In this document: positions 1,089 through 49,482 of the stretch, piece after piece
Layout of the letters: every line of letters begins with the position of its first letter
How positions within the stretch are numbered: the first letter of the stretch is position 1
Origin: a bacterium
Lineage (GTDB): Bacteria; Cyanobacteriota; Sericytochromatia; S15B-MN24; VGJW01
Direction: 5' to 3'
Length of the DNA: 61,780 nucleotides
Assembly: GCA_021781555.1 (NCBI GenBank)
Contig: JAJXWQ010000004.1
Coordinates: forward strand, 1 to 61,780
Notes under the pieces: generated by a model
What the model saw: only the letters and a program-made list of their open reading frames with translations
What the model was told of the DNA's origin: nothing
Database searches by the model: none
Position numbers and translations under genes: made by a program

Positions 1089-1196
1089 CTAGAGTGCTCC
1101 CGGTTTGAATGGATCGAGCCCGATGAGTCAAACGGGGCCCGGTTGCGCAGCGAAGCGACCGCGCAGAGGGACCCGTTCAAACTGCAAAAGGCCTAA
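1089..1196 (+). repeat. CTAG repeat copy 3, ending on the galK stop codon
   Basis: Complete 108-base copy, CTAG (1089-1092) to CTAA (1193-1196). The minus-strand galK stop codon TAG is the complement of 1193-1195, so the element begins exactly at the end of that gene. It sits between the convergent small gene and galK. Confidence 0.93.
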
Positions 1197-2374
1197 TCGA
1201 GCGGGAGCAAGGCCGCACCGTCCGCGGCAGCCAGGCGCCACATCCGAGCCGGCCGGCCGGTCTGCTCCTGGTACCGCGCGAGGGCGCGGTCGAGGTCCGC
1301 AGCAGCGGTCGCCAGGGCCACCGCCGAGCCACCGAATCCGGCGCCGGTCAGGCGAGCGCCGAGGACACCGGGCTCTGAACCGCACAGCTCCACCAGGGTG
1401 TCGAGCTCGGCGCACGAGACCTCGTAATCGTCGCGCAGCGACGCATGCGACTCGTTCATCAGCCGTCCGAAGGTCGTCACATCGCCCGTCGCCAGGGCCC
1501 GTCGCGCCAGGAGCACACGGTCGTTCTCGCTGAAGACGTGCCCCAGGCGCGCCCCGAGCAGGGGCGGGAGCTCCACACGCAGGGCCTCGAATTCCCGGCG
1601 ATCCACGTCGCGCAGGGACCCGAGCGGCCGATCCAGGTGCGTCGCCAGCACAGCCAGGCCCTCCTCGCACTCTTGACGGCGCTGGTTGTAGCCGGCCGTC
1701 GCCAGGGTCCTGGGCACTCCGGAGTCGAGGACGGCGATCTGGACCCCGATGGCCTCGAGATGCAAGGGAACGGCCTCGGTCTCGAGGGACCGACAGTCGA
1801 TGAAAAGAGCGTGGTCCCGCTTGCCGAGGGCGCTGACCATCGGATCCATCACGCCGCAGGCGACCCCCACGAAGGTGTTCTCGGCGCGCTGCGCCAAGAG
1901 GGCGAGGCGGACCGGCGGGAGCCTCCAGCCGAAGAGGGCGTCGAGGGCCTCGAGCACCGCCACCTCCAGGGCCGCCGAGGAAGACAGACCCGAGCCCAGG
2001 GGCACGTCGCCGGCGATCATCAGCTCGCAGGGGGCAACCGGCAAACCGGCCTCCGCGGCGACGCTCACGACCCCGCGGACGTAGCCTTGCCACCCCCCGT
2101 GATGCTCGATCCGCGCAGGCGGAGGGCCGAAGGCATCGCTCTGCTCGAACTGGACGGACCACACTGCGATATCCTCATGGCCCGGACGGGCCGCCACGAG
2201 AGTTTCGAGGTCGATCGCCGCGGGGAACACGAAGCCCCCGTTGTAGTCGGTGTGGTCTCCGATGAGGTTGACGCGTCCGGGAGCCCGGGCCACGAGCCGG
2301 GGCTCATGGCCGTAGTGGCGCTCGAAGGCGCGACCGAGCGCCCGGGCGCGGTCGGTGGAACCGATCATGGGCAT
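1193..2374 (-). CDS. galK: Galactokinase
   Basis: ATP-dependent phosphorylation of galactose to galactose-1-phosphate, the first Leloir step, in the cytosol. The 393-residue length is typical. GHMP-kinase signatures are clear: the galactokinase substrate motif GRVNLIGDHTDYNGG near the N-terminus, the phosphate-binding loop PLGSGLSSSAALE near residue 110, and the C-terminal GARLTGAGFGG motif. The start at 2374 (Met-Pro-Met-Ile) fits the family; the long upstream extension of the frame is the antisense of the next gene. Only 23 bases separate it from the unknown gene upstream on the same strand, so the two are probably cotranscribed. No other Leloir genes are nearby. Its TAG stop is embedded in the boundary of the CTAG repeat. 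Confidence 0.95.
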   Translation of the reverse strand: MPMIGSTDRARALGRAFERHYGHEPRLVARAPGRVNLIGDHTDYNGGFVFPAAIDLETLVAARPGHEDIAVWSVQFEQSDAFGPPPARIEHHGGWQGYVRGVVSVAAEAGLPVAPCELMIAGDVPLGSGLSSSAALEVAVLEALDALFGWRLPPVRLALLAQRAENTFVGVACGVMDPMVSALGKRDHALFIDCRSLETEAVPLHLEAIGVQIAVLDSGVPRTLATAGYNQRRQECEEGLAVLATHLDRPLGSLRDVDRREFEALRVELPPLLGARLGHVFSENDRVLLARRALATGDVTTFGRLMNESHASLRDDYEVSCAELDTLVELCGSEPGVLGARLTGAGFGGSAVALATAAADLDRALARYQEQTGRPARMWRLAAADGAALLPLD

Positions 2375-2397
2375 CGCTATCTTGCCTGCCTGGCCGC

Positions 2398-3069
2398 TCA
2401 CCGGCCATAGAAGCGCAGCGCCAGGATGACCCCGCCGCGGATGGCTCCGGTACCGGGCTCGTCCGAGGCATAGATCGCCCCGCCGAGGTTGTCGACGATG
2501 CGCACCCTCAATCCGAGGGCGACCGCGGTTCGACTGACCGCTCCGGCGTCGACGTCGACGTCCGCCGCGGCGGTCAGGTTTCGCACCAGTGCCAGCTCGT
2601 ATCCGACGTCGATCTTGGGCAGCCAGGTACCGGTAATCGTCGCGCCCGGGCGGGGCGGAATCCAGTCCACGCGGGGGGCGATCCGGGGCGTGCCCCAGGG
2701 CGTGGGCAGCTGCAGCTCCGAGCCCAGTTCGAACAGGTTGCTGTCGAGGGCCGGATTGGGAGTCCACCCCGCGTTGAAGGCCAGCAGACCTGGCAGGAGC
2801 GCGTAGGCTGCGGACAGGAGCCGCCGTCCCTGGGCGGGGATCCCGAGGTCCAGTTCCAACCCGGGCAAGACGCCCGTACGGATGCCTGCGGGGGAAAGGT
2901 ACGAAGGGGTCGGAAAGTAGACCCCCGGGTTGGTGGGACCGCCATTGTAGGCAGCCCCGACCTCGACCTCCCAGATGCCTACCGGCAGGACGTCGGCCGT
3001 GCGGACTTCCTGAGTTGGCGAGAAGGTGTCGAGCGGCGGTCGACCGAGAGGGGAGATGAGATCGATCAC
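2398..3069 (-). CDS. Predicted surface/outer-membrane-like protein, unknown
   Basis: A 223-residue protein with alternating hydrophobic/polar strands, Gly/Pro turns and a C-terminal aromatic residue (Leu-Arg-Phe-Tyr-Gly-Arg), as in small beta-barrels. The repeated 'GxxVxV/DLG' strand pattern fits a transporter-like or YaiO-like barrel. No clear signal peptide is seen at the N-terminus, which counts against simple export. The start is GTG (3067-3069). No Shine-Dalgarno precedes it, but TAATCT ends 6 nt upstream, suggesting a leaderless transcript. It lies 23 bases before galK, so a sugar-related envelope role is possible but unproven. Confidence 0.6.
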   Translation of the reverse strand: MIDLISPLGRPPLDTFSPTQEVRTADVLPVGIWEVEVGAAYNGGPTNPGVYFPTPSYLSPAGIRTGVLPGLELDLGIPAQGRRLLSAAYALLPGLLAFNAGWTPNPALDSNLFELGSELQLPTPWGTPRIAPRVDWIPPRPGATITGTWLPKIDVGYELALVRNLTAAADVDVDAGAVSRTAVALGLRVRIVDNLGGAIYASDEPGTGAIRGGVILALRFYGR

Positions 3070-3075
3070 GAGAAG

Positions 3076-3081
3076 AGATTA
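3076..3081 (-). promoter_or_regulatory. -10 box placed for a leaderless start
   Basis: TAATCT on the minus strand, separated by exactly 6 nt from the GTG start at 3069; no Shine-Dalgarno between. Same geometry as moaA and the response-regulator gene. Confidence 0.4.
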
Positions 3082-3203
3082 GCGCAACCTAGGGTTCGCC
3101 GCGAGGATCGCGCACGCCAGGGCCCGGCTCGGAGGGGTCGATTTACGTCGCGGCCCCCGAGCCGGCGGTGGAATTTCTGCGGGAGGACTGGCCAGGAGGG
3201 GCC

Positions 3204-3800
3204 TCAGGGCTTCTCGAAGCGGGCCACGTCCGTCGGGGTGTTGAGGTTGGCCAGCGAGGCGAGGCTCTCGACCGAGACGGCGATCGCAGCGGCCGCGAAG
3301 GGCTCGAGTATGGCCCGGAGCGTCGTATCGTCGCCAAGACCCCGCAGCTGCGGCTCCAGCAGCCGCGCGCTCAAGAGTAGCGGGTGGCCGCGCCGGTCGC
3401 CCACCATCGGCACCGCATAGGAGTGAACGTCCGGCTCGAACGCGGCCAGGAGGGCCGCCAGGGTTTCTGCCTGGAGGGGTTGATCGACGCCCGTGACCAC
3501 GATGGCCTTTGCGGCGTCCGAGACCGCCGCAAAGGCGAGGCGAAAAGACGCGGAGCGTCCCGTCGACCAGTCCGGATTCTCGACCACGTGGGCTCCGGTC
3601 AGACGCTCGCCGAGCACCTGGCGGATCTCCGCGGCGTGGGCGCCCAGGACCACGATCCGCTGGCCGAACCCGGCCAGCGCGTCTAGCTGTGACTCGAGCA
3701 GCGGCCGGCCGCGCACCTCGACCAGGGCCTTGGGCATGCCCATCCGCACGGAACCCCCTGCGGCCGTGATGATGGCGGCGCACCGCGAACGTTCGATCAC
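3204..3800 (-). CDS. MobA/MocA-like nucleotidyltransferase
   Basis: A 198-residue member of the MobA-like NTP transferase family, which attaches CMP or GMP to the molybdenum cofactor (or, in relatives, other nucleotidyl groups). The N-terminal nucleotide loop AAIITAAGGSVRMGMPKAL has the diagnostic glycines and the catalytic-site lysine. The metal-binding Asp lies in VVTGVDQPL and the substrate region in GDRRGHPLLL. The last pattern is closest to MocA (molybdopterin cytidylyltransferase), as used by xanthine-dehydrogenase-type enzymes. I place the start at GTG 3800, because the longer frame from 3875 begins inside a CTAG repeat. moaA at 15.9 kb supports a molybdenum-cofactor role, but no molybdoenzyme is in view. 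Confidence 0.8.
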   Translation of the reverse strand: MIERSRCAAIITAAGGSVRMGMPKALVEVRGRPLLESQLDALAGFGQRIVVLGAHAAEIRQVLGERLTGAHVVENPDWSTGRSASFRLAFAAVSDAAKAIVVTGVDQPLQAETLAALLAAFEPDVHSYAVPMVGDRRGHPLLLSARLLEPQLRGLGDDTTLRAILEPFAAAAIAVSVESLASLANLNTPTDVARFEKP

Positions 3801-3821
3801 GCTGACGCGCCCCGGGGAACT

Positions 3822-3929
3822 CGATCGTTCTTGGCGCGGGAACAAGTCCCCCTGCGCGGTCGCCGGGCTGCGCAACCGGGTCCCGTGGGCCTCCTCCGGA
3901 CCGCAGCGCTCAAACCGGGGGCACCCTAG
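3822..3929 (-). repeat. CTAG repeat copy 4 (diverged), ending on the recR stop codon
   Basis: Reverse-oriented, diverged copy of the expected 108-base length. CTAG at 3926-3929 contains the recR stop codon (complement of 3926-3928). The opposite end has decayed to CGAT. The inner stem TGCGC/GCGCA is preserved while the outer arms have lost pairing. It separates recR from the MobA-like gene on the same strand. Confidence 0.8.
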
Positions 3930-4522
3930 ACTTCGCGCCGGGCCACCAGGGCTCGGGCGAGCGTGACTTCGTCCGCGTACTCGAGCTCAGAGCCCATCGG
4001 CAGGCCGAAGGCGAGTCGCGTCACCTTGAGTCCGAGGGGCTTCAGCAAGCGGGTGAGGTAGAGGCTCGTGGCCTCCCCTTCGACCGTCGACCCGAGGGCT
4101 AGGATGACCTCGGCGATGCGATCCGTCGCCTGGAGGCGAGCCAGGAGTTCCGCGATCTTGAGCTGCTCGGGACCGACGCCGTCCATCGGCGAGATGAGCC
4201 CGCCCAGCACGTGGTAGCGGCCCTTGAACTCTCGGGTACGCTCGAGCGCGACCAGGTCCCGGGGCTCGGCGACCAGGCACACGACGGCGTCGTCCCTCGG
4301 CGCCAGGCAGAGTTCGCACGGATCCGATTCCGAAAGGTTGCAGCACCGAGAGCAAGTGCGGATGCGTTCCTTGGCCTCCAGGAGCGCAGCGGCAAGCTTT
4401 CGAACCTCGGCCTCAGGCTGGCGCAGGAGGTGAAACGCGAGTCGCTGAGCGCTTTTGGGCCCGATTCCTGGGAGCTTCTGCAGCTCCGAGATCAGGGCTT
4501 GCAGCGTGCGGGTGTATAGCAT
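3926..4522 (-). CDS. recR: Recombination mediator RecR
   Basis: RecFOR-pathway protein that, with RecO, loads RecA onto gapped SSB-coated DNA. 198 residues, the family length. The helix-hairpin-helix [14 protein letters not shown] is at 17-30. A zinc finger follows with Cys57, Cys60, Cys69 and Cys72. The Toprim domain has the AEPRD acidic patch, and the RecR hallmark [16 protein letters not shown] and a [11 protein letters not shown] segment follow. It lies 20 bases after ybaB on the same strand, the conserved ybaB-recR pair; dnaX, usually upstream, is absent here. The stop codon TAG is shared with the edge of a CTAG repeat. Confidence 0.97.
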
Positions 4523-4542
4523 GAGACGCCGGTGTACGGCGC

Positions 4543-4893
4543 CTACATCATGCCGCCGAGCCCCAGGCCTCCCGCGATGCCGCCAAGCTCCTGCTGGGCG
4601 AGCGCGCCGGCCTTGGACTGGGCGTCGCGAATGGCTGCCAGGACGAGGTCCTCGAGGGTCTCGACGTCCTCGGGATCCACCGCCTCCGGCTTGATCTGGA
4701 TGCGGGTGATATCCCGATGGCCATTGGCCGTGACGGTCACAACACCGCCTCCTGCCGTGCCCTCGACCGTGCGGCCGGAGAGGTCCTCCTGGGCCTTGGC
4801 GAGGTCCTCTTGCATCTTCTGGGCCTGCTTCATCATCTTCTGCAGGTCCATGCCGCCCATCGGGCCCGGGAATCCCCCTGGCATCCGCCGCAT
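4543..4893 (-). CDS. ybaB: YbaB/EbfC nucleoid-associated protein
   Basis: Small dimeric DNA-binding protein of the YbaB/EbfC family, usually encoded with recR. The body from [14 protein letters not shown] through the Gly-rich [14 protein letters not shown] beta segment to the acidic helix is typical; the Gly/Met-rich C-terminal tail is also common. The start at 4893 gives 116 residues and has AAGAGGA at ideal distance; an upstream ATG at 4917 has no better site. It is the first gene of a two-gene operon with recR, with a TATAAT box about 70 nt upstream on the minus strand. Confidence 0.95.
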
Positions 4894-5232
4894 GACGATC
4901 CTCTTCCTGAAGTCCAAGTTCCCGGCTTGACCGGGGTGGGGGGCTGCACCGATTACCGGACGCCATTATAAGGGATCGGCCAGGTCGCGGCTCGATGGGT
5001 AGTCCGGGACGCCGGCCCGGCCGGCACCCGTGCATCGCCGTGGCTCCAGCCAGGGGCGCGGATCGAGGCCGGCACCTGTCCGGCGCCAGGTTCCGGTAAC
5101 TGTCCGGGGGGTACAATGCTCGCAGGCGAGTGCCCCCCCCGGCCAGCGACTTGCAGCGACCGGCGGAGGGATCGGTCGACGGGACGGAACCTCGCGTTCG
5201 GTTGTGTCGTCTGGTTGAAAGGATCGGAAGCG
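4894..5232. other. Divergent promoter region between ybaB-recR and the sigma-factor operon
   Basis: Contains a consensus TATAAT for the minus-strand operon (4965-4970) and a weaker TACAAT (5112-5117, plus) preceded by TTCCGG at a short spacing. Otherwise GC-rich with no credible ORF; the apparent N-terminal extension of the sigma-factor frame to 5116 is probably untranslated. Confidence 0.5.
4965..4970 (-). promoter_or_regulatory. -10 box of ybaB-recR
   Basis: Perfect TATAAT on the minus strand; no good -35 is seen at 16-18 nt. It predicts a leader of about 65 nt before the ybaB ATG at 4893. Confidence 0.5.
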
Positions 5233-5862
5233 TTGGCGTCATCTCCGGAACAGCTCGAGCTGATCCGAAGAGCCCGTAACGGCGACAAGGCGGCCTTCGA
5301 GACTCTCGTGGCCCCCATCTTGGACCGTCTGTTCGGGCTCGCGGTGCAGCTCATGCGGAACCATGACGATGCCGCCGACGTGGTCCAGGAAGCACTGGTC
5401 AAGGTCTATCGATCCCTCGGAAGCTTCCGGGGGGACGCGGACTTCTTTATCTGGGTGTCGCGTATCGTTCGGAACACGGTGCTCGACGAGTTGAAGCGCG
5501 CTGTGCGGCGCCACGAGGAACCGACCGAGACCCTCCCGGAGTCCCTGGATCGATCCCTCGAAGGCAAGGCAGAGCAAGAGGAGCTCCAGCATATCGTGCA
5601 GGATTGCATCGGCCAGCTCTCGGTCAAGCTCCGGGAGCCGCTGGTGATGTACGACATCGAGGGCTATGCCTACGAGGAGATCTCCCGGATCTTGGAGCTC
5701 AACCTCGGCACCGTTAAGTCTCGATTGAATCGGGCGCGGGAAGCTTTGCGCCAGAAGCTCATCGGACAGCGGCACAGGCTAGCTGGGTGGATCGAGATTC
5801 CCGACGGCGGCGTCGGGCGATCGGGCGGGGGCAAGGTATCCAATGAAGTGCCAACAAGCTGA
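5233..5862 (+). CDS. ECF-type RNA polymerase sigma factor
   Basis: 209-residue extracytoplasmic-function sigma factor. Region 2 includes [17 protein letters not shown] (core binding and -10 recognition) and [16 protein letters not shown]. Region 4 is a helix-turn-helix, [24 protein letters not shown], for the -35 element. A charged linker, [11 protein letters not shown], lies between. I chose TTG at 5233 because the upstream frame extension is Arg/Pro-rich and AAAGGA lies upstream at 5219-5223. The anti-sigma gene overlaps its 3' end by 20 bases, so the two are translationally coupled. Autoregulation is usual for such pairs but no duplicated promoter motif was identified. Confidence 0.93.
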
Positions 5863-6529
5863 GCCGATCCTGGGTCGGTTCCTCGATCGCGATCTTCCTG
5901 CCGGCAGGTTCGCGGCGGTCGGCGAGCACGTGCGGACCTGCGAGCGCTGCGCCGCTCGCGTCGACGAGCTGCAATGGGTCGTCGCCCAGCTCAAGGCGCA
6001 GCCCCACCCCAAGGCGCCCTCGGAGCTGGCGGCCAGGCTCCACTTGCGACTGGCTGCCGAGCCGGTCCCGGCACGCAAGCCAGTCTTTGACATTCCGCGC
6101 AGCCTCCTCAACTGGCCCTCGCTGGGGCTGGGTGCAGCGGTGGCTGCCGCGTTGATGTTCGTCGTCTTGCGCAGCAGTCAGCCCAGCGTGGGCATCCAGG
6201 TGGCGGCGGTGCCGGTCGATCGGAACGTGGGCGTGCAGATCGCCTTCGGGGTCGATCGGGACGTCAAGGATGTCACGTTCGATATCAAGCTTTCGGATGG
6301 TCTCAGGTTCGTCGATGCCAAGGGCCAGCCCGTCAATACCCAGGAGGTCTCCTGGAAGGGCGAGCTGATGCGGGGCAAGACCGTGGTCCCGGTGACGGTG
6401 CGTGGCATCCGGCCGGGCAAGTGGGATATCCTGGCGATCGTCCGCAAGAATCAGATGGCCCGCGCCACGCAGATCATCGTGCCGGTGCAGGGCGATACGT
6501 CGAGTGTTTTGCCTGGCGGGGAGGGCTGA
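5843..6529 (+). CDS. Membrane anti-sigma factor with zinc finger
   Basis: 228 residues. The N-terminal anti-sigma domain has the HxxxCxxC motif (His29, Cys33, Cys36), expected to hold the ECF sigma factor inactive. One transmembrane helix spans about 92-109 (GLGAAVAAALMFVVL). The extracytoplasmic part (111-228) is all-beta, with repeated 'VxVPVTVRGIRPGKWDI' type strands like an Ig/cadherin-like sensor. It overlaps the sigma gene by 20 bases and is followed 3 bases later by a small secreted-protein gene, implying an envelope-stress or surface-signal operon. The signal and release protease cannot be inferred. Confidence 0.88.
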   Translation: MKCQQAEPILGRFLDRDLPAGRFAAVGEHVRTCERCAARVDELQWVVAQLKAQPHPKAPSELAARLHLRLAAEPVPARKPVFDIPRSLLNWPSLGLGAAVAAALMFVVLRSSQPSVGIQVAAVPVDRNVGVQIAFGVDRDVKDVTFDIKLSDGLRFVDAKGQPVNTQEVSWKGELMRGKTVVPVTVRGIRPGKWDILAIVRKNQMARATQIIVPVQGDTSSVLPGGEG

Positions 6530-6532
6530 TTG

Positions 6533-6745
6533 ATGCGATTGCAGATTGCGATGCTTTGTGTGGGCCTGACGGCCCTTTCGATTCTCGGTACCGCCCGGCC
6601 TGCTCCGGCCGCCGATCCGGCGCTGTCTCCCACGCCCTCACCAACGCCCTCGGGGTTGCCGATCGGTAGCGTCAACGTCAACGTCACCAATCCCAACAGC
6701 CAGCCGACCGGAGCGACGCACGTCGAGCAGCCGCCCCTGCGCTGA
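6533..6745 (+). CDS. Small secreted Pro/Ser/Thr-rich protein, unknown
   Basis: 70 residues: a signal peptide (hydrophobic core ~5-20, cleavage likely near Ala-Pro-Ala-Ala), then a low-complexity SPTPSPTPSG linker and a short Val/Asn-rich tail. It has no family I recognise. The ATG at 6533 lies 3 bases after the anti-sigma stop codon, so it is probably the third gene of that operon. It could be a secreted peptide or an accessory of the sensor domain. Confidence 0.6.
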   Translation: MRLQIAMLCVGLTALSILGTARPAPAADPALSPTPSPTPSGLPIGSVNVNVTNPNSQPTGATHVEQPPLR

Positions 6746-6847
6746 GCAGGGCGACGCCGAGCGCTCGTCGATCCCGGCATTTCCGGTCGATACCTCGGGT
6801 AGGCGATCGAGCCGGGATCCGGCATCCCGCGCAGACCGGAGAAGACC

Positions 6848-7180
6848 ATGATGGAATGTCTTTTTTGCAAGATCGTCGCCGGGGAAATTCCGGCCGCCAG
6901 GGTGTACGAGGACGAGCACGCCATCGCGTTTCGCGACATCGATCCCAAGGCTCCGGTCCACGTCCTCATCATCCCGCGCCCACACATCGCGTCGATCGCC
7001 GATCTCCCCGACTCGCTGGCCGGGCCCATGCTGCGGGCAATCCAGGCGGTGGCCGTCGAGGCGGGGGTCGCCGAGAGCTTCCGGGTGGTTACCAACCACG
7101 GAGCCGAGGCCGGCCAGAGCGTGTTCCACCTGCACTTCCACCTGCTCGGCGGCCGGCGCATGGCCTGGCCGCCCGGGTAG
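6848..7180 (+). CDS. hinT: HIT-family purine nucleoside phosphoramidase (HinT-like)
   Basis: 110-residue histidine-triad hydrolase acting on AMP-lysine or AMP-phosphoramidate adducts in the cytosol. It has the N-terminal CLFCKIVAGEIPA, with the CxxC of zinc-bearing HinT proteins, the central IPRPHIAS, and the triad HLHFHLLGG near the C-terminus with catalytic histidines. GGAGAAG (6838-6844) precedes two adjacent ATGs (6848, 6851); the first has the better spacing. It lies about 100 bases after the secreted protein gene and may be a separate unit. Confidence 0.95.
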   Translation: MMECLFCKIVAGEIPAARVYEDEHAIAFRDIDPKAPVHVLIIPRPHIASIADLPDSLAGPMLRAIQAVAVEAGVAESFRVVTNHGAEAGQSVFHLHFHLLGGRRMAWPPG

Positions 7181-7353
7181 TGGGGTTCTCCCCGCGTCGT
7201 CTGCCGGCGAAGGATCTCCCTTCGGGGCCCCCCGCCGCCGCTGTCCTTGCGATGGACAGCCAATCAATTTTTTGCTAACCTTCGAGATCCGGGCAGCCTG
7301 CGCCCTTGCGTGGGCATCGCGCCCGAGGCCTGACGCGAGGGGGTGAATCTAGA

Positions 7354-7527
7354 TTGGCTGAAATCCGGGTCAACGAAGGCGAGAGCATCGAGTCGGCGCT
7401 CAAGCGCTTCAAGAAGAAGATCCAGAAAGCCGGGATCTTGTCGGAGATCAAGCGGCGCGAGCGCTACGAGAAGCCCAGTGTGCGTCGCAAGCGGAAGTCC
7501 GAAGCTGCGCGCAAGCGCCGGTCCTAG
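7354..7527 (+). CDS. rpsU: 30S ribosomal protein S21
   Basis: 57-residue basic S21: [18 protein letters not shown], then a charged helix ending in [14 protein letters not shown], the standard pattern. S21 binds the 30S platform next to the anti-Shine-Dalgarno helix. The start is TTG at 7354, 9 nt after a strong GAGGGGG (7337-7343); the longer in-frame extension is Arg-rich non-family sequence. It is followed by a hairpin (7562-7593) and then the HD/ybeY/dgkA genes, an arrangement resembling the rpsU-yqeY/ybeY neighbourhoods of other phyla. Confidence 0.95.
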
Positions 7528-7561
7528 GTCCTTCGGTCCTGGGGCCCATCCCCGCGTCGTG

Positions 7562-7593
7562 AACACGCCTCGCGCATGGGCGCGCGGCGTGTT
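7562..7593 (+). terminator. Hairpin after rpsU, possible terminator or attenuator
   Basis: AACACGCC (7562-7569)/GGCGTGTT (7586-7593) with further CGCG pairing inside; followed by TCGGTTCTTTC, only moderately T-rich. It lies between rpsU and the HD gene and could set S21 apart from the downstream genes. Confidence 0.5.
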
Positions 7594-7620
7594 TCGGTTC
7601 TTTCAGGCCGTCTAGAGCCG

Positions 7621-10026: not shown

Positions 10027-10134
10027 CTAGACCTTTTGCAGTTTGAACGGGTCCCTCTGCGCGGTCGCTTCGCTGCGCAACCGGGCCCCGTTTGACTCAT
10101 CGGGCTCGATCCATTCAAACCGGGAGCACTCTAG
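10027..10134 (-). repeat. CTAG repeat copy 5 (complete, convergent intergenic)
   Basis: Complete 108-base copy with exact CTAG at both ends (10027-10030 and 10131-10134), in reverse orientation. It is nearly identical to copy 3 and lies between the convergent dgkA and histidine kinase genes. It defines the element length best. Confidence 0.95.
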
Positions 10135-15733: not shown

Positions 15734-15837
15734 CTATACCTTTTCCGGCTGGTACGGGCCCGCCTGCGCGGTCGCTGCGCCGCGTAACCGGGCCCCGGTT
15801 GGCCGCTCGGATCCGATCCGAACCGGGTAAAACCGCC
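15734..15837 (-). repeat. CTAG repeat copy 6 (diverged)
   Basis: Diverged reverse-oriented copy between the divergent DUF948-like and moaA genes. It starts at CTAT (15734-15737) and keeps CCTTTT, the GGGCCC arms and GCGCA, but the far end no longer shows CTAG. It is the only copy in a promoter-containing divergent gap. Confidence 0.75.
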
Positions 15838-15854
15838 CGGATCGCCGTGCCAAA

Positions 15855-15889: not shown

Positions 15890-16867
15890 ATGCGCGACGG
15901 CCTCGGCAGGCAGATCGACTACTTGCGCGTCTCGGTTACCGACCGCTGCAATTTTCGGTGTCAGTATTGCATGCCCGCGCGCGGGAAGATCTGGTTCCCC
16001 CGGGAAGAAATCCTGTCGTTCGAGGAGATTCACACCCTCGTGCGGGATGTCTTCATCCCCCTGGGCTTGACGCGGATCCGCCTGACCGGCGGCGAGCCGC
16101 TCCTGCGCCAGGGGCTGGCGACCCTCGTCACGCTCCTGCGCGGCGAACCAGCCCTCGAGGATCTTGCGCTTTCCACCAACGGCGTGCTTCTCGAAGCCCA
16201 GGCCGGCGGCCTTGCGGCGGCCGGTATCGATCGGGTGAACATCAGCCTGGACACGCTGGAGGGCGAGCGCTTCCGCAGGATCACCCGGGGCGGCAACCTG
16301 GAGATCGTCTTGCGGGGCGTGAGGGCGGCACTGGAAGCCGGCATGCACCCGGTCAAGATCAACTGCGTGGTGGTGCCTGGCCTCAACCTGGAGGATGTCA
16401 TAGAGCTCGCCCGGCTCACGATCGAGCTGCCGGTTCACGTCCGATTCATCGAGTTCATGCCCGTGGGGGACCGGGAGCTCTTCGAGGCGAGGGGCACGGT
16501 CACGATCTCGGATGTCGCCGGCCGGCTGCGGGAGCGCTTCGAGCTCGTGCCGGTCGCGGCCCCCCCCGCCGGGAACGGGCCGGCCGACCATCTGGCGATC
16601 CGCGACGCCATGGGTACCCTTGGCTTCATCCACCCCATGAGCCGTCACTTTTGCGATGCGTGCAACCGCCTCCGGTTGACGGCGAATGGCCACATCAAGG
16701 CCTGCCTGCTGACCTCCGGCGAGCTCGACCTCAAGACTCCCCTGCGTCAGGGCGCCTCCGCGGACGAGCTGCGGCAGCTGGTCCAGAGCGCCGTCGCCAT
16801 CAAGCCGGACTGGCACCACATGGGCGATCGGGTCCAGGCTTTGACGATGAGCCAGGTCGGGGGCTAG
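15890..16867 (+). CDS. moaA: GTP 3',8-cyclase MoaA (molybdenum cofactor synthesis)
   Basis: 325-residue radical-SAM enzyme for the first step of molybdopterin synthesis. The N-terminal cluster is Cys20, Cys24 and Cys27 (CNFRCQYC), and RLTGGEPLLR follows. The second Fe-S cluster is Cys255, Cys258 and Cys272 in FCDACNRLRLTANG. The C-terminal Gly-Gly tail needed for MoaA activity is present. No Shine-Dalgarno precedes the ATG; instead TATAAT ends 6 nt upstream. The TAG stop codon coincides with the left boundary CTAG of a repeat. The other moa/moe genes are not in the window. Confidence 0.97.
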   Translation: MRDGLGRQIDYLRVSVTDRCNFRCQYCMPARGKIWFPREEILSFEEIHTLVRDVFIPLGLTRIRLTGGEPLLRQGLATLVTLLRGEPALEDLALSTNGVLLEAQAGGLAAAGIDRVNISLDTLEGERFRRITRGGNLEIVLRGVRAALEAGMHPVKINCVVVPGLNLEDVIELARLTIELPVHVRFIEFMPVGDRELFEARGTVTISDVAGRLRERFELVPVAAPPAGNGPADHLAIRDAMGTLGFIHPMSRHFCDACNRLRLTANGHIKACLLTSGELDLKTPLRQGASADELRQLVQSAVAIKPDWHHMGDRVQALTMSQVGG

Positions 16868-16971
16868 GGGGCTCCCGGCTTGAAAGGACCGGGTTCGAGG
16901 AGTCAAACGGGGCCCGGTTGCGCAGGGCAGCGATCGCGCAGAGGGCCCCGTTCAAACTGCAAAAGGTCTAG
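16864..16971 (+). repeat. CTAG repeat copy 7, starting on the moaA stop codon
   Basis: Complete 108-base copy, CTAG (16864-16867) to CTAG (16968-16971). The moaA stop TAG is 16865-16867. The outer stem pairs perfectly; the loop region carries substitutions (AGGGCAGCGATC) relative to other copies. It shares its right CTAG with copy 8. Confidence 0.95.
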
Positions 16972-17075
16972 GGGGCTCCCGGCTTGAAAGGATCGAGCCC
17001 GATGAGTCAAACGGGGCCCGGTTGCGCAGCGAAGCGACCGCGCAGAGCGACCCGTTCGAATTGCCAAAGTTCTAG
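16968..17075 (+). repeat. CTAG repeat copy 8, ending on the cyclase-regulator stop codon
   Basis: Complete 108-base copy in tandem with copy 7 (period 104). Its right CTAG (17072-17075) contains the TAG stop of the minus-strand cyclase gene. The tandem pair therefore fills the gap between the two convergent stop codons exactly. Confidence 0.95.
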
Positions 17076-37167: not shown

Positions 37168-37752
37168 ATGGCGATTTCGGAGACCCCTGTAAGGCCCGGC
37201 GTCACGACCTTTACCTTTGAACCGGGGCACACCGCCGTCGAGTTCAAGGCCCGCCACATGATGGTTTCGTGGGTTCGCGGTCATATCAAGAACGTCCGCG
37301 GATCCTTGAAGTTCGATCCCGACCGGCCAGCCGAGGCCCGGACGGAAGCCGAGATGGACGTTGCCGACCTGTGGACCGGCGTCAAGGAGCGGGACGACCA
37401 CCTCAAGAGCGCCGATTTCTTCGATGCGGCGAGGTTTCCCAAGATCTTCTTCAAGAGCACGTCGGTGGAGTGCGTCGGCGCGGACCAGTACCGGGTCCAT
37501 GGCGACCTCACCCTCCGCGGCGTGACCCGGTCCGTGACCCTCGAGGTTCGCTACCTCGGCCAGTGGGAGACCCCCTGGTGGGAAGGTGGCGTGAACCGGG
37601 GGCCCAGGATCCGGGCGGGGTTCGAGGCCACCGCGCGGATCGACCGGAAGGATTTCGGGGTCAACTGGAACGACTCTCTCGATCGCGGGGGGCTGGTCGT
37701 GAGCGACGCGATCGACCTGACGATCGACGTCGAGGCCATCCAGCAGGTCTAG
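37168..37752 (+). CDS. YceI-family lipid-binding protein
   Basis: 194-residue YceI domain: VTTFTFEPGHTAVEFKARHMMVSWVRGHI and the long lipocalin-like beta barrel to the end. Family members bind isoprenoid chains, as in polyisoprenoid-binding proteins. No signal peptide is seen, so it is probably cytosolic. AAAGGA is 8 nt before ATG 37168; TAGAAT lies upstream. The TAG stop codon is part of the CTAG boundary of copy 9. Given the isoprenoid genes downstream, an isoprenoid ligand is plausible but inferred. Confidence 0.92.
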   Translation: MAISETPVRPGVTTFTFEPGHTAVEFKARHMMVSWVRGHIKNVRGSLKFDPDRPAEARTEAEMDVADLWTGVKERDDHLKSADFFDAARFPKIFFKSTSVECVGADQYRVHGDLTLRGVTRSVTLEVRYLGQWETPWWEGGVNRGPRIRAGFEATARIDRKDFGVNWNDSLDRGGLVVSDAIDLTIDVEAIQQV

Positions 37753-37850
37753 AGTGCTCCTGGTTTGAATGGATCGAGCCCGAGGAGTCAAACGGGGCCC
37801 GGTTGCGCAGCGCAGCGACCGCGCAGAGGGATCCGTTCAGACTTGGATGG
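37749..37850 (+). repeat. CTAG repeat copy 9, starting on the yceI stop codon
   Basis: The left boundary CTAG (37749-37752) contains the yceI stop TAG. The body matches up to the GCGCA stem; the right end is replaced by GGATCCGTTCAGACTTGG, resembling copy 2. It lies between the convergent yceI and trxC. Confidence 0.88.
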
Positions 37851-37874
37851 CTGTGGTACTGCGGATCCCGGGGC

Positions 37875-41618: not shown

Positions 41619-41628
41619 GGGGGCTTCC

Positions 41629-43542: not shown

Positions 43543-44531
43543 GCGAGGCTCCCGTCGTCGTGACCGGGGCCACGGGGTTCGTCGGGGGGGCGGTGGCCCG
43601 GGCTCTGGTCGCCCAGGGCCAGCGGGTACGCGTCGTGGTGCGTCGCGGTGCCGACCTGGCCAACCTCGAAGGCCTGTCGGTCGAGCGCGCCCTCGGGGAC
43701 GTCTGCGATGCCGAATCCATGCGCGCGGCCCTTGTCGGAGCGCGGGGCCTGTATCACGTGGCGGCGCGCTATAGCCTCTGGAGCCGCGATGCGGGAGACA
43801 TGTACCGCTCGAATGTCGAAGGCACGCGGACCGTCTTGCAGGCGGCGCTCGAGGCGGGGGTGGAGCGGGTGGTCTACACCAGTTCGGTCGGTACCCTCGG
43901 CATCCCGGCAACGGGATCCGGGACGGAAGACACTCCCGTGGCGATCACCGACATGGTCGGCGCGTACAAGCGCAGCAAGTTCATGGCCGAGGCGGTTAGC
44001 CGGGAGTTCGTCTCCCGAGGCCTGCCCGTCGTGATCGTCAATCCATCGACGCCCATCGGGGCCCGCGACCTCAAGCCGACGCCCACGGGTCAGGTGGTGG
44101 TGGATTTCTTGCGCGGTCGCATGCCCGCCATCGTAGAGACGGGGCTCAACTACGTGAGCGTCGAGGACGTGGCGACGGGGCATCTTTTGGCCTACGAACG
44201 GGGCGAGGTGGGGCGCCGTTACATCCTCGGCAACCAGAACCTGTCGCTGGGCGAGTTCCTGGGTCTGGTTGCGGAGGCTTCCAGCCGCCGCCCGCCCCGC
44301 TTCAAGGTCCCGCTCTTCGTGGCCTTGGCCGCAGGGATGGTGAGCGAGGCGGCGAGCTACGTGACCGGGAAGAAGCCGCAGGCCCCGATCGCCGGGGTGC
44401 TGATGGCGCGCAAGAAGATGTACTTCGATGCCTCGCGGGCGGTGCAAGAACTCGAGCTGCCGCAGACTCCGGTCCTGGTCGCGGTGCAGCAGGCCGTGCG
44501 CTGGTTTTTCGACAACGGGTACGCCCGGTGA
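43539..44531 (+). CDS. hpnA: HpnA, hopanoid-associated NAD-dependent sugar epimerase/dehydrogenase
   Basis: 330 residues, extended short-chain dehydrogenase. GATGFVGGAVARAL nucleotide loop at the N-terminus, active-site YKRSKFMAE (YxxxK), and NPSTPIGARDLKPTPTGQ, characteristic of HpnA. It probably acts on the hopanoid side chain or sugar. The start is TTG 43539, overlapping the shc stop by 4 bases with GGGAGG in the shc end; its stop overlaps the next start (GTGA). Confidence 0.94.
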   Translation: MSEAPVVVTGATGFVGGAVARALVAQGQRVRVVVRRGADLANLEGLSVERALGDVCDAESMRAALVGARGLYHVAARYSLWSRDAGDMYRSNVEGTRTVLQAALEAGVERVVYTSSVGTLGIPATGSGTEDTPVAITDMVGAYKRSKFMAEAVSREFVSRGLPVVIVNPSTPIGARDLKPTPTGQVVVDFLRGRMPAIVETGLNYVSVEDVATGHLLAYERGEVGRRYILGNQNLSLGEFLGLVAEASSRRPPRFKVPLFVALAAGMVSEAASYVTGKKPQAPIAGVLMARKKMYFDASRAVQELELPQTPVLVAVQQAVRWFFDNGYAR

Positions 44532-45955
44532 GCGCCCTTGCAGATCCCGCCGCGGGGGCGATCGCCGTCGTGGCCGCGATGCGCCGGGAGGTCGCGCCGC
44601 TGATCGACCAGCTGCAGGGTCGTCGTCGCCTCGATATCTCCGGCTTGCGTGGCTGGAGCGGCCGCATCGCTCGGCGCGAGGTGGTCGTCGTGGTTTGCGG
44701 AGTCGGGCCGCAGAGGGCGGCAGCTGCCGCCGGGTGCCTCCTGCGAGCGCGACCCGATCTCGAACTGGTCGTTTCGGCCGGCTATGCGGGCGGCCTGGCC
44801 GAGGATCTCGACACGGGTGACGTGGTCATCGCCACCGCGGTCATTCTGGACTCCGACTCGGTTCCCTGCGATGCGGGGCGGGTCGCGGCGCTGGCAGCCT
44901 GGACCGGGGCCCGGACGGCCGCCGTGGTCACGGTGGCGCGGGCAGCTTCGACCCCCGAGGCCAAGGCCGCGCTTCGCGAGATCTCCGGGGCCGCCGTCGT
45001 GGACATGGAGGCCTTCGCGGTCGGGCGCGCCGCCAGCGCCGCCGGCGTGTCCTTTCTTGCTATCAAGGTCGTGCTCGACGGGGCCGGCGAGACGCTGTCG
45101 CTGGCCCCTGCCGCCTGGCCGCGCCTGGCGCGCGCCGCGAGCCTCGGCAGCCGGCAGCTCTTCGACGCGCTGATGCACCTGCTGGGGCGCGGTCCGGTGC
45201 GTCCCTGGTGGCGGGCCCTGGGTTTGGCCGTACGCGGGATCTTCCGGCTCGGGGACGAGCGGCGGTACGCCTTTCGCTACTTCGCCGAGGCCCCGGCGGT
45301 CGAGGGGCTGGACGATCTGCCGCCTGGCCCCAAGATCCTGGCCTGCAACCACCAGAGCTGGCTGGATGTGTGCCTGGTCTATGCGGCGGCCCCGTGCCGC
45401 GTGCACTGGGTGGCCAAGGCGGAGCTGTTCGGGCCCCGCCTCCTGCGGTGGTTCCTGAAGAACGTGGGGGCGATCCCGCTCGATCGCGCCCGGGCCAGGA
45501 GCCTGGCTGCCTACGCGACGGTCCTCGCTCGCGGGGGCACGGTCGTGATCTTTCCCGAGGGTACGATCCCCGGCGAGGAGGATCTGCCCCGTTCTGCGGT
45601 CGATCCCGAGACCGGGCTTCTACCGGGCCGTACCGGCGCCGTCAGGCTGGCCCTGGAGACGGGCGTGCCGCTGATCCCGGTGGGCATCTCGGGAACGGGT
45701 CTGGCTCTGCCCCCCGAGGCCGCTCCGCACCTGCAGCAGTTCCCGCTGCCTCGGCGGGGCGTGCGCCTGGCCCTCCGCTTCGGGGCTCCGCTCGATCTCT
45801 CGCCGCGGCGCGACGGGAGCGAAAACGTTCGCCAGGCCACCGAGCGGCTCATGCGGAGCATCGCGTCGCTCGTCGACCCCGAAGATATTGCCCGTGCCCG
45901 ACAGTACTCCCGCCCGCAGCCCGATCCACTCGCGGCTCCTTCGCTCGTCCCGTAG
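44528..45955 (+). CDS. hpnG: HpnG nucleosidase/phosphorylase fused to a PlsC-type acyltransferase
   Basis: 475 residues in one frame. Residues 1-~215 are the hopanoid-associated phosphorylase HpnG, which releases adenine from adenosyl-hopane to give ribosyl-hopane; the family segments VVVCGVGPQRAA and VVDMEAFAVGR (157-167) are present. Residues ~225-450 are a lysophospholipid-acyltransferase domain with HQSWLD (catalytic His275 and Asp280), IPLDRAR, FPEGT (342-346) and PLIPVGI. Normally these are separate proteins. The GTG start overlaps hpnA by 4 bases and hpnC follows 13 bases later. The fusion suggests acylation of a hopanoid or of membrane lipid coupled to hopanoid synthesis. Confidence 0.9.
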   Translation: MSALADPAAGAIAVVAAMRREVAPLIDQLQGRRRLDISGLRGWSGRIARREVVVVVCGVGPQRAAAAAGCLLRARPDLELVVSAGYAGGLAEDLDTGDVVIATAVILDSDSVPCDAGRVAALAAWTGARTAAVVTVARAASTPEAKAALREISGAAVVDMEAFAVGRAASAAGVSFLAIKVVLDGAGETLSLAPAAWPRLARAASLGSRQLFDALMHLLGRGPVRPWWRALGLAVRGIFRLGDERRYAFRYFAEAPAVEGLDDLPPGPKILACNHQSWLDVCLVYAAAPCRVHWVAKAELFGPRLLRWFLKNVGAIPLDRARARSLAAYATVLARGGTVVIFPEGTIPGEEDLPRSAVDPETGLLPGRTGAVRLALETGVPLIPVGISGTGLALPPEAAPHLQQFPLPRRGVRLALRFGAPLDLSPRRDGSENVRQATERLMRSIASLVDPEDIARARQYSRPQPDPLAAPSLVP

Positions 45956-45968
45956 AATCAGCATTCCG

Positions 45969-46871
45969 ATGAGTCTAGCCACCTTCGTGCAAGGTTCCTC
46001 CAACCCCGCTGCCGACCCCACGGCCGCAGATGCGGCTTGCCGCGCGCTGGCGGGTTCGCACTACGAGAACTTCGATGTCGTGGGGATTCTCGTCCCCAAG
46101 GACCTGCGCGCGCACCTGGCCCGACTCTACGCCTTCTGCCGGCACACGGACGACCTTGGCGACGAGGGCGGTGCCAGCGTCGAAGAGCGCCTGGACGCAC
46201 TGACAGCGTGGTCCGAGGATCTCGAGCGCTGCTGGGGAGGCCAGCCCGAGCACCCGTATCTGGTCGCACTGGCCCATTCGGTCCGCGAGCTGGAGCTCCC
46301 CCGCGAGCCGTTCTTCCGCCTCGTCGAGGCCAACCGCATGGACCAGCGGAAGACCTCCTACGACACCTTCGCGGATCTCAGGTACTACTGCCGCCATTCT
46401 GCCGATCCGGTCGGCGAGATGGTGCTGCACTCGGTAGGGGCGGCGACACCCGAGACCATCGCCCTGTCCGACTCGATCTGCACCGGGCTGCAGCTGGCCA
46501 ACTTCTGGCAGGATGTGCGCGTCGACCGCGACAAGGGGCGCAGGTACATCCCGCAAGAGGACCTGGCGAGGTTCGGCGTGAGCGAGAGCGATCTCGCCAG
46601 CCCGATCGCCAGCGACGCGTTCCGGCGGCTCGTCGAGTTCGAGGTCGAGCGTGCGCGCCAGCTGCTGCTGGCTGGAACCCCGCTCGTCAAGCTTGCGCCC
46701 GGGGGAGTGCGCCCCGCGCTGGGCGGATTCGTCCGCGGCGGTCTGGCGATCCTCGACCGGATCGAAAAGCAACGTTACGACGTCCTGGCGCGCCGACCGG
46801 AGGTCTCCCGGCTCGCCAAGGTGGGGATCGCCGTCCGCACGCTGGCCGCGCAGGCGATCGGTGGATGGTGA
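45969..46871 (+). CDS. hpnC: Hydroxysqualene synthase HpnC
   Basis: 300 residues. Squalene/phytoene-synthase fold. Asp-rich motif DDLGDE near residue 60 and the second motif NFWQDVRVDRDKGRRYIP. In the HpnCDE route HpnC converts presqualene diphosphate to hydroxysqualene. ATG 45969 is preferred over an upstream frame that is Ser/Arg-rich and unlike the family. It follows the hpnG fusion by 13 bases and precedes hpnD by 34. Confidence 0.94.
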   Translation: MSLATFVQGSSNPAADPTAADAACRALAGSHYENFDVVGILVPKDLRAHLARLYAFCRHTDDLGDEGGASVEERLDALTAWSEDLERCWGGQPEHPYLVALAHSVRELELPREPFFRLVEANRMDQRKTSYDTFADLRYYCRHSADPVGEMVLHSVGAATPETIALSDSICTGLQLANFWQDVRVDRDKGRRYIPQEDLARFGVSESDLASPIASDAFRRLVEFEVERARQLLLAGTPLVKLAPGGVRPALGGFVRGGLAILDRIEKQRYDVLARRPEVSRLAKVGIAVRTLAAQAIGGW

Positions 46872-46905
46872 GGCTCGGCATGCTGCGACTGGTGGGGATA
46901 CGGTG

Positions 46906-47802
46906 ATGCAGGTCCTCGAGTCCCCGGTACGGCCTGCGGTCTCGCTGGACGAGGCCCGGCGCCACTGCCGCGATCTCACCTGGCGGTCGGCCAAGAACTT
47001 CTTCTATGCCTTCTTGTTCCTGTCGACCGAGCAGCGGGAAGCGGCCTTCGCCATCTACGCCTTCTGCCGCGTGGCCGACGATCTGGCCGACGACGAGAGC
47101 CGGCCCCCCACCGAGCGGCTGGAGGCCCTGGCGCGCTACGAGACCGATCTCGACGCCTGCCTGGCGGGTCGGCCGGTCGCCGATCCGGTCTTCGTCGCCC
47201 TGCGCGCGGTACTCGACCGGGTGGCGGTGCCCGAGCGTGGATTCCGCCTGATGCTCGAAGGGGTGCGCCAGGATCTCGTCGTCGACCGCTACCGGACCTT
47301 CGACGAGCTGGCGGATTACTGCTTCAAGGTCGCTTCGACCGTCGCCCTGTTGCTGATGCCCGTCTTCGATCCGCAGCGACCGGGGGACTACGAGCCTTAC
47401 GTGCGAGCCGGGGGGGTGGCCGTCCAGCTCACGAACATCCTGCGCGATATCAAGGAGGATGCTGCGCGGGGGCGAATCTACCTGCCTGCAGACGACATGG
47501 CGCAGTTCGGCGTGGACGATGCGATGGTGCTGAGTGGCGAGCCTACCGAGCCCTTGCGCTTGCTCATCGCCTTCGAGGTCGAGCGGGCCGAGCGCCTGTA
47601 CGACGAGGCCGAACGCCTGGTCACACCTCGCGATCGCCAGAATCAGATCGTGCTCGAGACCTCGCGGACCTTGTACCGACGCCTGCTGTCGCGCATCCGC
47701 GATCGCCGCTACGACGTGTTTTCTTGCCGGGTCGCGCTCTCGCCGCTGCGCAAGCTGCAGATCTCCCTGGGAGTCCGCATCCGCGGCTGGATCGGGCGGT
47801 GA
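46906..47802 (+). CDS. hpnD: Presqualene diphosphate synthase HpnD
   Basis: 298 residues. Condenses two farnesyl diphosphates into presqualene diphosphate. Motifs ADDLADDESR and QLTNILRDIKEDAARGRIYLP, with the conserved YAFCR start helix. ATG 46906 (or GTG 46903) has GGGGA (46894-46898) upstream. It is in order hpnC-hpnD-hpnE, the standard squalene route that avoids squalene synthase. Confidence 0.94.
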   Translation: MQVLESPVRPAVSLDEARRHCRDLTWRSAKNFFYAFLFLSTEQREAAFAIYAFCRVADDLADDESRPPTERLEALARYETDLDACLAGRPVADPVFVALRAVLDRVAVPERGFRLMLEGVRQDLVVDRYRTFDELADYCFKVASTVALLLMPVFDPQRPGDYEPYVRAGGVAVQLTNILRDIKEDAARGRIYLPADDMAQFGVDDAMVLSGEPTEPLRLLIAFEVERAERLYDEAERLVTPRDRQNQIVLETSRTLYRRLLSRIRDRRYDVFSCRVALSPLRKLQISLGVRIRGWIGR

Positions 47803-47845
47803 GCCCTCGCGGGCTTCGCTCGAGCGATCGCCCTCCTGGCGCGAC

Positions 47846-49369
47846 TTGAACCAAAAGGCGGTAGCTACGAGTCGGATCGCAAGACGGCCCCCCAGGACGC
47901 TCGTCGTCGGGGGCGGGTTCGCCGGGCTGGCGGCCGCCACGGCACTGGTCGACCGCGGCCACGATACGCAGCTCGTCGAGCGCCGTCCGTTCCTGGGCGG
48001 CAAGGTATTCTCGTTCTACGATCCCGCAGCCGGCCATGCCGTGGACAATGGCCAGCACGCCTTCCTTTCGGCCTACCGCAATACCATGGCCCTGCTCGAC
48101 CGGTGGGGCGCGGGCCACCGGGTGGCCTTCGGCCGTCGGCTCGAGATGGTCTTCATGGAGGCGCCGGGCCGCGCTCGGAGGTTCGCCGGGACGGGCCTCC
48201 CCGCGCCGCTGCACCTGCTCGGGGCCCTGCTTCGCTTCGAAGCGCTTCCGGTCCGGGATCGTCTGGCGATGGCCCGGCCGGCGCTGGACCTCCTGGCGCT
48301 GGATGCCGCCGGCCGTCGGGAGCTCGACGCGATGAGCTTCGCGGCTTGGCTGTCCCGACACGACCAGAGCCCCCAAGCCGTCGCAGCCTTCTGGGAACCG
48401 CTGGCGCTCGCGGCGGTCAACGGTTCGCCGCAGGAAGTCAGCGCCTACATGGCCCTGCAGGTGCTCGCGCTCGGCTTTCTGGGGAGCGAGCGGACGAGCC
48501 ATCTGGGGTTCGCGACCGAGGGGCTGTCCGCCCTGGTAGAACCTTTCGTGCCGTACTTCACGGCCCGCGGCGGCGAGCTCCTTGCGAGGCGGGAGGTGCA
48601 AGCCGTGCGGGAGGCTGGCGAGCGCTCGGATGGTTTCCGGTGGGTGGTGGAGTTCCGCGACGGTGACACGCTGGCCGCCGACTCGGTCGTGCTGGCAGTA
48701 CCCCACTGGCGCCTGGCGCGGCTCGTCGATCCGCAGCTCCGGCAGCGGGCCGGCCTCACGGCGAGCGAGGGCCTGGCAGCGGCGCCCATCGTGTCCATCC
48801 AGATCGTGCTGGATCGGCCCGTGGTCGAGCATGCTGCCGTGGCGTTGCTCGCCAGTCCGATCCACTGGGTCTTCGCCGCCGGCCGGCTGCGGTCCGACGC
48901 GCCGCCCGGGGCCCTGGCCCTGACCGTCAGCGCCGGACGCGAGCTCGCCACCCTGCCCCAGGACGAGGTCGCCGCGATCGCCCGGCGGGAGCTCGAACGC
49001 TTCTTCCCCTCGGCGCGCGGGGCGCAGGTTCTGGCGTGCCGCGTGATCAAGGAGATGGATGCCACCCTTTCCTGTGCCCCGGGGAGCGAGGCCCTGCGGC
49101 CCGCGCAGGAGACGATCCTGCCGGGTCTGGCGGTGGCGGGAGCCTGGACCCGGACCGGCTTGCCGGGGACGATCGAGGGCGCGGTCATGAGCGGCCTGCT
49201 CGCGGTGGAGGCGATCGAGCGGGAGCGAGGCCAGGCTTGCTCGCTGGCGCAGCCCCTGTCGGATCCAGGGGGGGCCGCGCTGCTGGCCCGCTGGGTCGGG
49301 CGGGCTCTGGGACGGCGTGCGGCCCCTGTCGAGTCCCTGCTCGAGCGTAACGAGACCTGTTCAAAGTGA
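47846..49369 (+). CDS. hpnE: Hydroxysqualene dehydroxylase HpnE
   Basis: 507 residues. FAD-dependent amine-oxidase/phytoene-desaturase-like fold; reduces hydroxysqualene to squalene. Dinucleotide loop VVGGGFAGLAAATALVDRG, then ERRPFLGGKVFSF, DNGQHAFLSAYRNT and the C-terminal FAD site AGAWTRTGLPGTIEGAVMSG. I use TTG 47846 as start, the only one between the hpnD stop and the FAD loop that avoids the upstream Arg/Ser-rich frame; it is tentative. Last gene of the operon; a CTAG repeat follows. Confidence 0.92.
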   Translation: MNQKAVATSRIARRPPRTLVVGGGFAGLAAATALVDRGHDTQLVERRPFLGGKVFSFYDPAAGHAVDNGQHAFLSAYRNTMALLDRWGAGHRVAFGRRLEMVFMEAPGRARRFAGTGLPAPLHLLGALLRFEALPVRDRLAMARPALDLLALDAAGRRELDAMSFAAWLSRHDQSPQAVAAFWEPLALAAVNGSPQEVSAYMALQVLALGFLGSERTSHLGFATEGLSALVEPFVPYFTARGGELLARREVQAVREAGERSDGFRWVVEFRDGDTLAADSVVLAVPHWRLARLVDPQLRQRAGLTASEGLAAAPIVSIQIVLDRPVVEHAAVALLASPIHWVFAAGRLRSDAPPGALALTVSAGRELATLPQDEVAAIARRELERFFPSARGAQVLACRVIKEMDATLSCAPGSEALRPAQETILPGLAVAGAWTRTGLPGTIEGAVMSGLLAVEAIERERGQACSLAQPLSDPGGAALLARWVGRALGRRAAPVESLLERNETCSK

Positions 49370-49375
49370 GACGAG

Positions 49376-49482
49376 CCCTGCTTTGGGCAGTTTGAACGGG
49401 GCCCTCTGCGCGGTCGCTTCGCTGCGCAACCGGGCCCCGTTTGACTCATCGGGCCCGATCCATTCAAACCGGAGCACTCTAA
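49376..49482 (-). repeat. CTAG repeat copy 10, ending on the ABC permease stop codon
   Basis: Reverse-oriented. The CTAA boundary (49479-49482) contains the minus-strand permease TAG (complement of 49479-49481). The outer stem pairs perfectly (AACGGGGCCC/GGGCCCCGTT); one base is deleted near the end and the hpnE-side end is degenerate. It lies between the convergent hpnE and ABC permease genes. Confidence 0.9.

Follow-up and report, generated by a model that had tools for sequence, protein, structure and literature searches.

A 102-bp miniature transposon-like repeat with TA edges, often placed on TAG stop codons, in a genome of the class Sericytochromatia

Why should a short bacterial repeat end, again and again, on the stop codon of the gene beside it? 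The question is raised by a stretch of 61,780 nucleotides (the window; positions 1 to 61,780 of the forward strand of contig JAJXWQ010000004.1, our contig C87) from GenBank assembly GCA_021781555.1, which comprises 3.82 Mb in 181 contigs. The host is a member of Cyanobacteriota from a class without photosystem I: PsaA/PsaB are present in genomes of the same phylum and absent from this genome and from the tested genomes of the same family, order and class. The original prediction, made from the letters of the window only, described ten copies of a CTAG-bounded element whose edge supplies the stop codon of adjacent genes, and proposed a miniature element moved in trans by an IS630/Tc1-mariner-type enzyme. 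We find that the element is real and well supported, a small repeat of an already known kind, resembling miniature inverted-repeat transposable elements (MITEs), and that its ends rebuild stop codons which were already there.

All ten predicted copies in the window were recovered by repeat search and alignment, and they align to one consensus. Four measure exactly 108 nt with the CTAG or CTAA at each edge included, as had been stated: 1089-1196 (+ strand, CTAG...CTAA) and 10027-10134 (− strand, CTAG...CTAG), both with 100% identity to the consensus, and the tandem pair 16864-16971 and 16968-17075 (both +), whose members have one CTAG in common. Two old copies on the − strand lie at 3822-3931 (76% identity) and 15734-15838 (77%, with a right edge of TATAG). 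Decayed right ends are seen in the copies at 95-198 (+, predicted at 96), 37749-37853 (+) and 49376-49483 (−, with a TTAG left edge), and the copy at 1-98 (+), in tandem with the next, is truncated by the window start. The six predicted coincidences with stop codons hold without exception when open reading frame coordinates and Pfam identities are used. The TAG stops of recR (3926-3928, −), moaA (16865-16867, +), yceI (37750-37752, +) and the ABC permease gene (49479-49481, −) lie in the left edges of the copies at 3822, 16864, 37749 and 49376, and those of galK (1193-1195, −) and the cyclase regulator gene (17072-17074, −) lie in the right edges of the copies at 1089 and 16968. Within the copy at 1089, positions 1127-1181 form a conserved hairpin core with the outer stem AACGGG.../...CCCGTT and the inner sequence GGTTGCGCAGCGAAGCGACCGCGCAGAGG.

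The copies in the window belong to a much larger set. Genome-wide, the left-end 21-mer has 226 matches and the right-end 23-mer has 224 (at most 2 mismatches), against 0 for a reversed-pattern control, and the copy number of the element is roughly 225, far above chance. Copies were read in 0.80 Mb of the genome (21%), taken as stretches, plus fetched loci. In this sample the distance from TA to TA inclusive is exactly 106 nt in 130 copies, a tally that is not a count of distinct copies because some loci overlap the stretches, and the length between the two TAs is almost always 102 bp. The element is short, non-coding and multi-copy, with sharp ends at unrelated sites, as is generally seen in MITEs, and the predicted status of a non-autonomous miniature element of about 102 bp is supported. 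Tandem copies have one CTAG in common and a period of 104 bp; variants are often common to tandem neighbours (e.g., on contigs C44 and C67), which indicates that some arrays grew via local duplication. In one tandem pair (L127:25-230, contig C39, also L008), all left edges read CTAAGAGTGC, one base more than is typical, which would fit duplication of an element with an additional A. Copies lie at the termini of many contigs, so the element probably contributed to the fragmentation of the assembly. A search of Rfam placed no family on the element, the sole match being a tRNA, and no similar sequence was found in viral contigs or a plasmid collection.

The bases just outside the two TAs reveal what the element recognizes. 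In the 67 full copies that are not in tandem, the base outside the left TA is C in 81%, T in 17% and A in 2%, and that outside the right TA is G in 78%, A in 21% and C in 2%; the two vary independently, in copies that are otherwise almost identical. Because these preferences are mirror images, the base past the right TA belongs to the target and not to the element, and the target is the symmetric, palindromic YTAR (Y, C or T; R, A or G), mostly CTAG. The expected CTAG boundary is therefore the usual one, but the TTAG left edges and CTAA right edges widen it to YTAR. A symmetric YTAR target fits duplication of TA by an IS630/Tc1-mariner-type (DDE) enzyme, a duplication that we infer. A 4-bp target duplication is ruled out, as every left edge reads YTAG while right edges read either YTAG or YTAA, and a left T often occurs with a right C; the 4-bp YTAR duplication of IS5-type elements is likewise not seen, since the left and right tetranucleotides differ. 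Orientation is not coherent along contigs (same strand in 29 of 59 pairs), nor does it depend on the adjacent gene (L 27, R 29). Integron attC, Helitron and IS91-like readings were dropped, given that there are no GTT/AAC cores and no TC start and that the target is symmetric.

Sites without the element are found in a congener (G001, about 87% DNA identity), as the original prediction had anticipated for relatives. G001 has no element at the positions corresponding to window 3822, 10027, 15734 and 16864/16968 and to two sites on contig C6. CTAG or TTAG is kept at four of these sites: in the element-free genome, recR ends in CTAG, moaA in TTAG and the gene beside C6:2350 in CTAG, and the site at window 10027 is an empty CTAG. 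In G001, an older relic of the family is present at the galK site and at C6:2063. Intergenic divergence blocked base-exact reading at most of the G001 sites, none of the copies whose right edge is CTAA had a clean empty counterpart, and a joined-flank search within the genome itself gave no clean paralogous empty site. Together, the approximately 225 copies and the element-free congener sites form a large replicate set on where small elements are tolerated, from a lineage of Cyanobacteriota with little genetics.

How far, then, is the element drawn to stop codons? Our own codon-usage gene calls in the sample comprise 642 genes, with TGA (345), TAG (238) and TAA (55) stops. Of 161 outer element boundaries, 56 are the TAG stop of an adjacent gene, 104 are intergenic and 1 lies inside a called gene, so that element edges now form 24% (56/238) of the called TAG stops. 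For comparison, free CTAG sites are distributed as 64 at stops, 85 in genes and 113 in intergenic DNA. When copies are grouped into independent insertion blocks, 46 blocks have both edges known and 24 of these touch a stop. The proportions are 15/28 blocks versus 64/173 free sites at CTAG-type sites (p 0.10) and 9/18 versus 18/215 at other YTAR-like sites (p 2e-5), with a pooled odds ratio of 3.3 (p about 0.0002). The predicted enrichment at stops is real, and allowing for the sites available leaves it moderate. Convergent gene pairs are over-represented (19/46 blocks versus 95/623 gene pairs) and divergent placement is rare (4/46 blocks versus 43/173 free CTAG sites). CTAG is avoided inside genes, with 202 occurrences in called genes against about 559 expected from trinucleotides; the proposal that this rarity makes stops tolerated sites is borne out and explains much of the stop placement. 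Target choice and purging from genes and promoters account for most of the placement pattern.

The claim that the edge supplies the stop has to be reversed. Wherever the TAR of a YTAR site is in frame, it is a stop already, so the element edge restores stops and invents none. The creation of new stops was rejected because element-free congener orthologues (recR, moaA and two C6 genes) already end in TAG. The existing stop is split, and the terminal G of each element end rebuilds it; a TAA stop hit by the element becomes TAG. Host and element fit each other in this respect: a genome that shuns CTAG in genes leaves stops as prime targets, and ends that start with G repair them.

The 102-bp copies are a young burst surrounded by older relatives, namely 60-bp hairpin-only tandem units, 89-bp units and forms with other 5' parts. 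Hairpin-only units of 60 and 89 bp occur in short tandem arrays at C124:18727, C169:1, C152:1 and C6 (L138:1082) of this genome (G000). The core CCGGTTGCGCAGCGNAGCGACCGCGCAGAGG is also kept in G001, in G004 (of the same family) and in the metagenome-assembled genome L036, and the surrounding stem varies with compensation (AACGGG/CCCGTT, AAATGG/CCATTT, AAGTGG/CCACT, and GACGCC/GGCGTC in G004). Double compensations number 14 against 6.3 in shuffles, a count reached in 3 of 2000 shuffles that do not control for relatedness. Compensatory changes in the outer stem mark a palindromic hairpin under structural constraint, as in repetitive extragenic palindromic (REP) sequences, and the hairpin is stable on both strands (z about -2.6). 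At L032 (G004 C204:760-960), in a relative of about 52% GC, the same inner core with a wholly different complementary outer stem is repeated between two genes. As for the ends, the main subfamily has an end-registered subterminal repeat, GTTTGAAYGGRTC, whose first base is nt 12 counted from either TA (14 of 24 positions match, p about 0.0016), and good terminal repeats, GAGCGATTTTCGGTTGA and GAGCGTTTTCAGCTTGA, are found in a second subfamily. This family context, with a covarying core in many older subfamilies and a single-copy gene for a candidate rival enzyme, was missing from the original prediction.

A family search found two candidate enzymes, each in one copy: an IS630 transposase and a Y1 protein. 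The sole IS630 transposase (NF033545, 244 bits) belongs to an insertion sequence that sits in CTAG...CTAG with the terminal inverted repeat (TIR) GTACCTCTGCACAGAGG, which is present at few loci only. The 102-bp element is itself inserted exactly on the terminal CTAG of resident IS630 copies at two ends (L179 and L183, contigs C13 and C173 of G000). The Y1 protein (142 aa) matches the IS200/IS605-type model NF033573 with 63 bits against a cut-off of 55. A single copy of its gene is present in G000, G001, G002 and G004 (loci L098:1456-1884 on contig C155 of G000, L097, L195 and L196), and none was found in G003. The gene has the same neighbourhood in G000 and G001 (dN 0.046, dS 0.279, dN/dS about 0.16), and the G000 and G001 proteins have Q-L-H or Q-V-H in place of the HUH (histidine-hydrophobic-histidine) motif. 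It is vertically inherited and likely a domesticated transposase of this family of genomes.

We consider it somewhat probable that the element is a non-autonomous, MITE-like transposon of 102 bp moved in trans by an IS630/Tc1-mariner-type DDE transposase. This route is favoured because the target is symmetric, strand bias is absent, the length is fixed and TIRs are present. Built on the observed copies, length, boundaries, symmetric target preference, empty sites, retained stops and rarity in genes, the scheme presumes the DDE chemistry and the identity of the enzyme. The transposase would most likely cut at TA/GAGTGC...GGYC/TA (slashes, cuts), and the excised element would be pasted into the TA of a symmetric YTAR site, preferably CTAG, with duplication of the TA. 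With a G after TA at each end, whichever strand is hit, a TAG or TAA stop would be restored as TAG and the gene would survive. Insertions in genes and promoters would be purged, and those on stops and between convergent genes would persist. A CTAG rebuilt at an edge could serve as a fresh target or permit unequal exchange, giving rise to 104-bp tandem arrays. An IS630-type parent would be expected to carry the ends GAGTGCTCCCGG and GGCCTTTTGCAG.

Several observations weigh against this scheme. The constant TA at both edges makes TA duplication indistinguishable from an element carrying its own TA. The ends of the resident IS630 (GTACCTCTGCACAGAGG) are unlike those of the element, and the element ends are absent from all DDE_Tnp_1 loci examined. 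No autonomous copy occurs in the 21% of the genome that was read. In the main subfamily the two ends hardly match over their outermost 11 nt, and the part most conserved across species is the internal compensating hairpin, which a TIR-based transposase does not need. A likeness between IS630 ends and element ends was sought with shuffles and rejected, as the best p values (0.03-0.05) came from internal, out-of-register matches. The sole transposase-enclosing candidate, a long left-right end pair of 1.7 kb on contig C85, turned out to be two separate decayed copies, and a like search of subfamily-2 end pairs found none enclosing a transposase. The original remark that no matching transposase is visible thus stands for the IS630, the DDE_Tnp_1 loci and the end-pair searches, and the IS630 transposase with matching ends that it suggested looking for is not the resident one. 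Of its IS630 assignment, the CTAG (YTAR) target and the TA at both ends hold up; the assignment itself is an extrapolation, as the resident TIR differs. The element has the TA target with preferred CTAG of IS630-type MITEs and works like one; we do not class it among them, as the ends in common with an IS630 that define such MITEs were looked for and not found.

A tentative alternative is that the element is REP-like, or akin to paired REP sequences (REPINs), and is moved as single-stranded DNA by the single-copy Y1 (HUH-type, IS200/IS605-like) protein of this genome. The hairpin core would then be the recognition site, with cleavage at C/TA at both edges, TAGAGTGC...GGYC lying between Y and TAR, and no target duplication. 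In favour of this route, the hairpin covaries: changes in the outer stem go with a core kept in G000, G001, G004 and L036. The spread of the Y1 gene is family-limited to roughly the same extent as that of the hairpin; in addition, TnpA_REP cleaves at C/T, and GTAG REPs often give flanking ORFs their TAG stops (PMC8266576, PMC3733652). However, the target preference is mirror-symmetric around TA and there is no strand bias. There is no GTAG tag, the edge being YTAG with its first base from the target, and the Y1 protein is far below the cut-off of the REP-transposase model NF047646 (REP_Tyr_transpos; 29 versus 80 bits), with Q-[LV]-H at the HUH position. The only element copy flanking the Y1 gene is one 38-bp relic, and G002 has the Y1 gene with no element detected. 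A more specific version, in which the Q-[LV]-H Y1 protein serves a new REP-like system as its domesticated single-strand transposase, reading the covarying core and inserting elements of about 102 bp at YTAR, is doubtful; if true, it would give TA-bounded, stop-preserving insertions by a route unlike those of IS630 and of REP-associated tyrosine transposases (RAYTs).

IS5-type elements have YTAR targets, and the genome has six DDE_Tnp_1 loci, which lends something to the idea that a DDE transposase of another family moves the element, its parent being lost or missing from the 181-contig assembly. With the 4-bp duplication excluded and no DDE_Tnp_1 locus bearing the element ends, we regard this as unlikely. 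It is highly improbable that the repeat is not mobile as such and was spread or homogenized by recombination and gene conversion, being kept as a 3'-end RNA hairpin (a terminator or stabilizer). The concentration 3' of genes and between convergent genes, the hairpin stability on both strands and the variants common to tandem neighbours would suit such a role, but the element-free congener sites, the uniform 102 bp, the sharp TA edges in unrelated flanks, the indifference to the orientation of the adjacent gene and the lack of a T-run beside the stem speak against it.

Among known systems, the repeat unit of pneumococcus (RUP) of Streptococcus pneumoniae is a close parallel to the element as we favour it, a MITE-like transposon moved in trans. 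RUP is 107 bp long, its proposed mover is IS630-Spn1, and its ends are common with the resident IS630 (PMC2229807). Both are about 100 bp long and non-autonomous, with TA at both edges and about 100 or more near-identical intergenic copies, whereas the ends of our resident IS630 differ from those of the element; that review mentions neither placement on stop codons nor a hairpin core for RUP. IS630, of the Tc1/mariner superfamily, prefers a two-fold symmetric CTAG target, according to a statement in PMC2170065 that cites Tenzen and Ohtsubo (1991). The element resembles it in preferring TA within CTAG, in which the resident IS630 itself lies, and differs in its end sequences and in having no transposase gene. 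With GTAG-tagged REPs, REPINs and RAYTs it has in common dispersed hairpins, tandem arrays, a position mostly 3' of genes and a single-copy Y1 gene, and the provision of TAG stops to flanking ORFs by GTAG REP edges has already been reported (PMC3733652). Unlike those, it has no GTAG at the palindrome foot, a stem that begins about 12 nt in, and a 102-bp length with fixed TA edges and a symmetric target; unlike RAYTs, its Y1 candidate falls under the REP-transposase cut-off with an altered HUH motif. By description it is also like enterobacterial repetitive intergenic consensus sequences (ERIC, or intergenic repeat units, IRU), Correia elements (neisserial miniature insertion sequences, NEMIS) and cyanobacterial MITEs, which are small, TIR-bearing, non-autonomous hairpin elements. 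ERIC and Correia have TA termini (PMC2229807), and Anabaena sp. 90 has MITEs without a matching resident insertion sequence (PMC3542288).

Two further features of the window were noted. A dispersed repeat unrelated to the element lies at positions 915-1060; G001 has dozens of copies of it, some of them in tandem. At 46037-49369, two similar genes are followed by a flavin amine-oxidoreductase gene, an arrangement that resembles a squalene/hopanoid (hpnCDE) cluster, in which the oxidoreductase alone was tested.

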